Origin: Vulcanimicrobiota bacterium | GTDB lineage: Bacteria; Vulcanimicrobiota; Vulcanimicrobiia; Vulcanimicrobiales; Vulcanimicrobiaceae | Direction: 5' to 3' | DNA: 64,000 nucleotides | Assembly: GCA_027307235.1 (NCBI GenBank) | Contig: DAHUXH010000016.1 | Span: 1 to 64,000, forward strand | Shown here: positions 60,818 to 62,020 of the stretch, piece by piece | Numbering within the stretch: the first letter of the stretch is position 1 | How the letters are laid out: each line of letters begins with the position of its first letter | Made by a program: the position numbers and the translations under genes | The notes under the pieces: model-generated | Database searches by the model: none | The model's input: only the letters and a program-made list of their open reading frames with translations | What the model was told of the DNA's origin: nothing

Positions 60818-61519
60818 ATAGCAAGACCGCTTCGAGTCAACGATCAGATCCGAATTCGCACCGTGCGCGTCATCGACGACGCCGGCGAACAGCTCGGCAT
60901 CATGCCGACCGAGGAGGCACTCGCGCGTGCCCGGACGGCCGGACTCGATCTGATCGAAATATCGCCGACGGCACAGCCGCCGGTGTGCAAGATCGGAGAC
61001 TACGGTAAGCTCAAGTACGAGCAGTCCAAGAAAGACAAAGAAGGCCGCAAGAAGCACAAGCAGTTCGAACTGAAAGAAGTCAAACTGCGGCCGAAGATCG
61101 AGACGCACGACTACGAGACCAAGGCCCGTATGGCCGAACGTCTGTTGCTCGACGGCAGCAAAGTCAAAGTAACGATCATGTTTCGCGGACGCGAGATCAC
61201 CTATACGAGTTTCGGAAAGCGATTGCTCGATCGCATGTCCGAAGACATGGCACCTCTCGCTATCGTCGAGCGCGAGCCGCGTCTCGAGGGTCGCAACATG
61301 TTTATGATTTTAGCGCCGCGTGCGGTACCTGCGGGTCCGCCGAAATTTATGAGCGTTAAGACAAAGGAGCAAACCAGTGCCAAAGATTCGGACCCATCGG
61401 GGAACAGCAAAGCGAGTGAAGGTGACGGCGACGGGCAAAGTCCTGCATCGCCACCAGTTCAGCGGGTGCGGTCACATTCTGAGCAAGAAGACGCGCAAGC
61501 GCAAACGCAAGTTCCGTAA
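60818..61519 (+). CDS. infC: Translation initiation factor IF-3
   Basis: IF3 checks the start codon and keeps ribosomal subunits apart. It has the N-domain RVNDQIRIRTVRVIDDAGEQ, the LGIMPTEEAL segment, the linker KKDKEGRKKHKQ and the C-domain KEVKLRPKIETHDYETK. No ATG or GTG fits; an AGGAG site at 60804-60808 points to ATA 60818 or ATC 60812. Unusual starts (AUU, AUA, AUC) are normal for infC and serve autoregulation. The C-terminus is about 50 residues longer than usual because there is no stop before it runs 143 nt into rpmI in another frame. Confidence 0.9.
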   Translation: MARPLRVNDQIRIRTVRVIDDAGEQLGIMPTEEALARARTAGLDLIEISPTAQPPVCKIGDYGKLKYEQSKKDKEGRKKHKQFELKEVKLRPKIETHDYETKARMAERLLLDGSKVKVTIMFRGREITYTSFGKRLLDRMSEDMAPLAIVEREPRLEGRNMFMILAPRAVPAGPPKFMSVKTKEQTSAKDSDPSGNSKASEGDGDGQSPASPPVQRVRSHSEQEDAQAQTQVP

Positions 61520-61583
61520 GGATCAATCGACGTTCAAGGGCGATTTGAAACGCTTGGCGCCGACGATTCCGTATTTGGTGTAG
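61377..61583 (+). CDS. rpmI: 50S ribosomal protein L35
   Basis: This 68-residue basic protein has MPKIRTHRGTAKRVKVTATG at its start and FKGDLKRLAPTIPYL at its end, as in L35. The start is GTG 61377, preceded by AAAGGAG at about 7 bases. Its first 143 bases overlap the end of infC in a different frame. The order infC-rpmI-rplT is the classical one. Confidence 0.96.
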   Translation: MPKIRTHRGTAKRVKVTATGKVLHRHQFSGCGHILSKKTRKRKRKFRKDQSTFKGDLKRLAPTIPYLV

Positions 61584-61598: not shown

Positions 61599-61958
61599 AT
61601 GGCACGTATTAAACGGGGAGTTTCCGGACTCAAGCATCGCCGCAAGGTGATGAAGCTCGTCAAGGGCTTCCGCGCCGCGCGCCGTCGCAACTACCGCGTC
61701 GCGAACGAAGCGCTGCTCAAATCACTGGCCTACGCCTTCCGCGATCGCCGCGTGCGCAAGCGCGACTTCCGCTCGCTGTGGATCAGCCGCATCAACGCGG
61801 CGGTGCGCCGTGAGGGCATGTCGTATTCGGTGTTCATGAACGGACTCAAGAAGTCGGGCGTCACGCTCAACCGCAAGGCGCTCGCCGAACTCGCGATCAG
61901 CGACAGCAAAGCCTTCGGCTCGCTGCTCTCGCTTGCGAAACAAGCCGTCGGCAAATAG
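61599..61958 (+). CDS. rplT: 50S ribosomal protein L20
   Basis: This 119-residue protein starts with ARIKRGVSGLKHRRKVMKLV and has the conserved GFRAARRRNYR and SLWISRINAA segments. L20 is an assembly protein of the large subunit and a translational repressor of this operon in other bacteria. It lies 15 bases after rpmI and is followed by a strong terminator. Confidence 0.97.
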   Translation: MARIKRGVSGLKHRRKVMKLVKGFRAARRRNYRVANEALLKSLAYAFRDRRVRKRDFRSLWISRINAAVRREGMSYSVFMNGLKKSGVTLNRKALAELAISDSKAFGSLLSLAKQAVGK

Positions 61959-61978: not shown

Positions 61979-62020
61979 AAAGACGGAAGGCGGGGCATGA
62001 CGCCCCGCCTTCCGTCTTTT
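61979..62020 (+). terminator. Intrinsic terminator after rplT
   Basis: An 18-bp perfect stem, AAAGACGGAAGGCGGGGC (61979-61996) with its complement (62002-62019), encloses the loop ATGAC and ends in TTTT. It lies 20 bases after the rplT stop. The A run on the other side makes it usable on the minus strand as well, ending the 62052-62908 pair. Confidence 0.9.

Follow-up and report, generated by a model that had tools for sequence, protein, structure and literature searches.

Long overlaps between two genes of one strand have been described as phase-1 overlaps, and the excerpted texts of PMC3887535 and PMC2542354 give the nearest background. In the simulations excerpted from PMC3887535, overlaps arise more often by 3′ extension of the upstream gene than when the downstream gene is extended at its 5′ end. 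The excerpt of PMC2542354 ascribes the surplus of long phase-1 overlaps to downstream 5′ extension, which is another route than the one seen here. In both excerpts long phase-1 overlaps become scarcer as GC rises, and long overlaps are held there to be selected against, more strongly at high GC. The falling frequency with GC argues, as far as these excerpts go, for some selection and against full neutrality.

For short overlaps, the excerpted PMC10666635 lists −8 nt as the third commonest spacing. The gene order infC-rpmI-rplT, examined below, is also that of the E. coli operon, and translational coupling in that operon is the title subject of two papers cited in the excerpt of PMC12548453. 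Among the matches listed in our literature search, judged by title or start of abstract, none was a paper on the infC/rpmI overlap reported here.

We analysed an infC-rpmI-rplT cluster lying on the + strand near the end of the window, that is, of the whole 64,000-nt stretch of DNA. Its parts are as follows.

60818 to 61519, + strand: infC, translation initiation factor IF3 (233 aa; Pfam IF3_N and IF3_C, TIGR00168)
61363 to 61369, + strand: Shine-Dalgarno-like AAAGGAG of rpmI, inside the infC tail (from sequence)
61377 to 61583, + strand: rpmI, ribosomal protein L35 (68 aa), GTG start (Pfam L35p, TIGR00001)
61377 to 61519, + strand: infC/rpmI overlap of 143 nt, rpmI in the +1 frame of infC (from sequence)
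61380 to 61382, + strand: rpmI codon 2, CCA (Pro); CCT in 67/67 family rows with the 8-nt overlap
61382 to 61384, + strand: place of the family's usual infC stop (TAA), AAA in the window (alignment with relatives)
61382 to 61516, + strand: 45 IF3 residues past the old stop site, probably disordered (pLDDT, charge)
61460 to 61462, + strand: 86-nt infC stop site of long-overlap rows, CAG in the window (from sequence)
61599 to 61958, + strand: rplT, ribosomal protein L20, third gene of the cluster (Pfam, TIGR01032)

The preliminary description had reported a 143-nt overlap of the two genes in different frames with 47 shared IF3 residues, and this is confirmed. The infC frame is open to the TAA at 61517-61519, rpmI starts with GTG at 61377, and the shared stretch counts the infC stop. 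The window IF3 scores 209.1 bits with TIGR00168 against a curated cut-off of 60, and L35 scores 56.4 bits with Pfam L35p and 56.5 bits with TIGR00001. Each of infC and rpmI has a single match in the window's genome, with no second copy of either seen.

The pair fits a long unidirectional overlap, with one strand, different frames, at least 7 nt shared and an earlier in-frame stop in relatives. It belongs to the described long overlaps, being long for them and lying between two translation genes. Like the long phase-1 overlaps in the excerpts of PMC3887535 and PMC2542354, it has lost the upstream stop and uses the next out-of-frame one. Its 143 nt, however, exceeds the 60-nt limit of one simulation scenario in the excerpted PMC3887535. 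Moreover, unlike the long phase-1 overlaps as those excerpts present them, its lost stop lay inside the downstream gene. Since the infC stop was already within rpmI, its loss could be silent there.

Beyond the three genes, a 19-pair inverted repeat lies 3′ of rplT at 61979-62019, with a terminator-like score on the − strand only. Known structured RNA was sought with Rfam; the 10 matches all stay below the gathering score and all fall over this repeat.

The junction was read in relatives, taking one locus from each of the 87 of 99 genomes of the window's family (its own counted) that matched IF3; the other 12 had no IF3 match. Three loci were left out, L087 for having no IF3 part and L081 and L084 for an interrupted IF3, leaving 84 readable rows. 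In 67 of these the overlap is 8 nt, with the infC TAA at bases 6-8 of rpmI, and the 143 nt of the window is thus longer than usual, as the preliminary description had supposed. Thirteen rows overlap by more than 8 nt, namely by 23 nt (one row), 86 nt (ten), 143 nt (one) and 161 nt (one). In the remaining four the two genes are apart.

The usual form is shared with all 3 rows of the sister family and with 4 of 14 in the third family of the class. Outside the class, 32 loci came from 31 of 32 genomes (G120 left out) and five of them gave no L35; among the 27 readable loci in this rest of the phylum, one has the 8-nt form and one, L217, a 32-nt overlap. From this spread we infer that the 8-nt form is ancestral. 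With respect to the −8 nt spacing in the excerpt of PMC10666635, the window has lost what is its family's usual infC-rpmI arrangement.

A normal IF3 end near 61330 had been proposed for this locus. The TIGR00168 match does end about there, but the family's IF3s go further, and their usual end corresponds to 61382-61384, inside rpmI. A stop ahead of rpmI in relatives had been put forward as evidence against the overlap; it is found in four of the 84 rows, while 67 stop five bases into rpmI. With the infC stop at the 8-nt place or before rpmI in 71 of 84 rows, the long form is scattered stop loss and not the arrangement of the family.

The downstream start is unchanged, as the rpmI start and Shine-Dalgarno motif of the window align with those of relatives. 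The motif recurs 5′ of rpmI in 82 of 84 family rows, including all 13 with a long overlap, and in the window its AAGGAG encodes the KE of the IF3 tail ...TKEQTSA. In short-overlap relatives the ribosome-binding site and start of rpmI (61364-61381) encode the C-terminal end of IF3, often as ...KE-x-x-SA, and 59 of 67 of these rows end in -SA.

The state of the junction goes with codon 2 of rpmI. The usual infC stop is made of the T of rpmI Pro2 and the AA of Lys3 (GTG CCT AAR), and all 70 rows with the 8-nt form (67 of the family and 3 of the sister family) have CCT as codon 2, as does none of the 17 other family rows. It is CCA in ten, CCC in two and CCG in one of the 13 long rows, and CCG in the four rows with the genes apart. 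The rows left out read CCT in L081 and L084 and CCA in L087, like its genus g11. In the 36 long ORFs mechanically chosen from the window, CCT makes up only 54 of 821 Pro codons, yet it is always there with the 8-nt overlap; the infC stop therefore seems to hold a disfavoured codon in place.

In the window codon 2 is CCA, which is silent in L35, and the infC frame reads AAA instead of TAA. The third base of Pro2 would thus have turned to A, removing the infC stop and leaving L35 unaltered. IF3 would then be read on for 45 codons in the other frame. The next stop used in the family, the 86-nt one (TAG in nine and TGA in one of ten rows), is open in the window as CAG because L35 Phe28 is TTC. The frame finally ends at the out-of-frame TAA where the L35 Arg codon CGT meets Lys AAG. 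The added residues would lengthen an IF3 tail that already varies in the family, and they are probably tolerated rather than selected.

Hence, our main reading, to which we give a probability of about 0.86, is a recurrent and probably near-neutral stop loss by silent change of rpmI codon 2, lengthening a disordered IF3 tail. The same stop has been lost in six further lineages (L004, L005, L039, L042, L086 and g11). In g11 the 86-nt overlap is in all seven readable rows of ten genomes (L037, L049, L050, L052, L055, L058 and L083). The g11 rpmI starts with ATG, and most family rows have GTG.

A sequencing or assembly error would leave the true base 61382 as T and the overlap at the usual 8 nt. 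The window differs by only one base from the state usual in the family, its genome is alone in its genus and the draft assembly has 20 contigs. Against that, the same stop is lost in the six lineages above, and the 86-nt site is open too, as a real overlap requires. Such an error could, moreover, only be a substitution; the indel that had been suggested for 61320 to 61377 is unsupported, since the tail of IF3 aligns in frame with relatives as far as the old stop site (…TKEQTSA). We consider an error very unlikely.

To count the recurrence, 87 rows (84 of the family and 3 of the sister family) were placed on a tree built from the DNA of the IF3 core and L35 with rpmI codons 1-3 omitted. The long-overlap state needs six changes, gains or losses (bootstrap 5-95%: 6-7), and well-supported branches force five of them. 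The window's own place on this tree is poorly supported. L079, L080 and L063, all of short overlap, have long branches and unsure places.

Once the usual stop is lost, the length of the overlap is not beyond chance and is unremarkable. Synonymous codings of the window L35, drawn by codon usage with codon 2 not CCT, gave a median overlap of 122 nt and a probability of 0.36 for at least 143 nt with the usage of 36 window ORFs; with codon usage taken from the three cluster genes, this probability was 0.28. The relatives' own sequences agree. A further stop was located in 66 short-overlap relatives; without the usual stop, 29 of these would overlap by 143 nt or more, 9 of them by exactly 143 nt. 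A surprising length is thus supported on neither count. As codons ending in T are few here, stops out of frame are rare, and overlaps of such size are a usual outcome.

As for the tail itself, IF3 tails beyond about core residue 168 range over 17-91 residues with a median of 38 in the 84 rows. The predicted structure of the window IF3 has a confident core and a pLDDT below 50 over residues 180-231, which is partly due to an alignment without rows for the tail. The 45 extra residues carry a net charge of −4, but the same frame with stops removed has a median of +1 in the 84 family rows. An acidic tail dictated by the L35 frame, as claimed before, is accordingly not general.

An out-of-frame tail that has gained an IF3 function, with the overlap held by selection, would have a precedent in Myxococcus xanthus. 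Its InfC (Dsg) has a 66-residue C-terminal extension that is essential for development and not for translation, according to the excerpt of PMC2129111. The window shares the long extension with it but shows no sign of function. Because third positions of L35 codons are first positions of the IF3 codons, constraint on the tail would be expected to hold L35 synonymous sites fixed. Between the window and its short-overlap relatives the ratio of L35 synonymous difference inside to beyond the overlap is 1.12, equal to that of 67 short-overlap relatives treated alike (mean 1.16, sd 0.19), although the comparison rests on one gene with controls related to each other and has little power.

Thus, no excess constraint on the window tail is seen in L35 synonymous divergence relative to the 67 related controls. 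Five other long-overlap rows also fall within the control spread, with ratios of 0.93 (L005), 1.14 (L004), 1.41 (L039), 1.69 (L042) and 1.37 (L037), and with 30, 13, 64, 96 and 55% of controls, respectively, at or below them. In g11, where every readable genome has the overlap, synonymously variable codons are 3 of 25 inside and 9 of 40 beyond it (ratio 0.53, Fisher p=0.34). This deficit is the one hint of constraint, weak and non-significant; four other genera, of which two contain a small number of rows lacking the 8-nt form, have ratios of 0.93-1.65. Within the g11 overlap, all three variable sites alter the IF3 residue, and the long-overlap lineages end at differing points (23, 86, 143 and 161 nt). 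Selection for a functional tail is therefore a very improbable account of the overlap. The window tail is presumably translated and probably near-neutral.

A regulatory account is unlikely as well, though less so. A distant infC stop would end termination-reinitiation coupling and untie L35 output from IF3 translation. The excerpted PMC10666635 treats a spacing between −8 and +10 nt as a predictor of such coupling, and the family's usual one is −8. The window, with its infC stop ending 143 nt into rpmI, is outside this coupled-pair range. However, with the Shine-Dalgarno-like motif kept in 13 of 13 long rows, rpmI can probably start alone. Loss of coupling may follow from the overlap as its consequence.

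The +1 relation of rpmI to infC and the AAAGGAG 5′ of it would suit an IF3-L35 fusion made by ribosomes that translate IF3 and shift by +1 within the overlap. The same motif and frame relation are present in the 8-nt relatives, where infC stops, and the chance of such a fusion is close to negligible. More broadly, repeated silent changes in the rpmI-embedded infC stop might act as an evolutionary switch that uncouples L35 (and L20) synthesis from IF3 and gives IF3 tails read out of frame, some of them functional, perhaps in g11. We regard this broader reading as very unlikely.

Under near-neutral stop loss, the window overlap neatly illustrates, in an otherwise ordinary case, how genes come to overlap at length. 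It shows how a gene can be lengthened by a change that leaves the protein of its neighbour unaltered. The family is a clean natural series, from 8 nt in 67 of 84 rows to 23, 86, 143 and 161 nt in 13, and could serve to test the strength of selection against long overlaps between essential genes. For annotators, the length of IF3 in this group can differ for a trivial reason.

The 5′ end of infC is set here most likely at ATA 60818 and not at TTG 60749 of the mechanical ORF list. ATA stands at this place in 79 of the 81 readable family rows (of 86) and ATC in one; the remaining row, L064, was read one codon off. An in-frame ATG, GTG or TTG before the upstream stop is absent in 24 of the 81 rows and present in 28, and in the other 29 the locus ends before that stop is reached. 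The E. coli operon, of the same gene order, starts infC with AUU, and the window with AUA. The AUA start would fit the use of a rare start codon for IF3 autoregulation.
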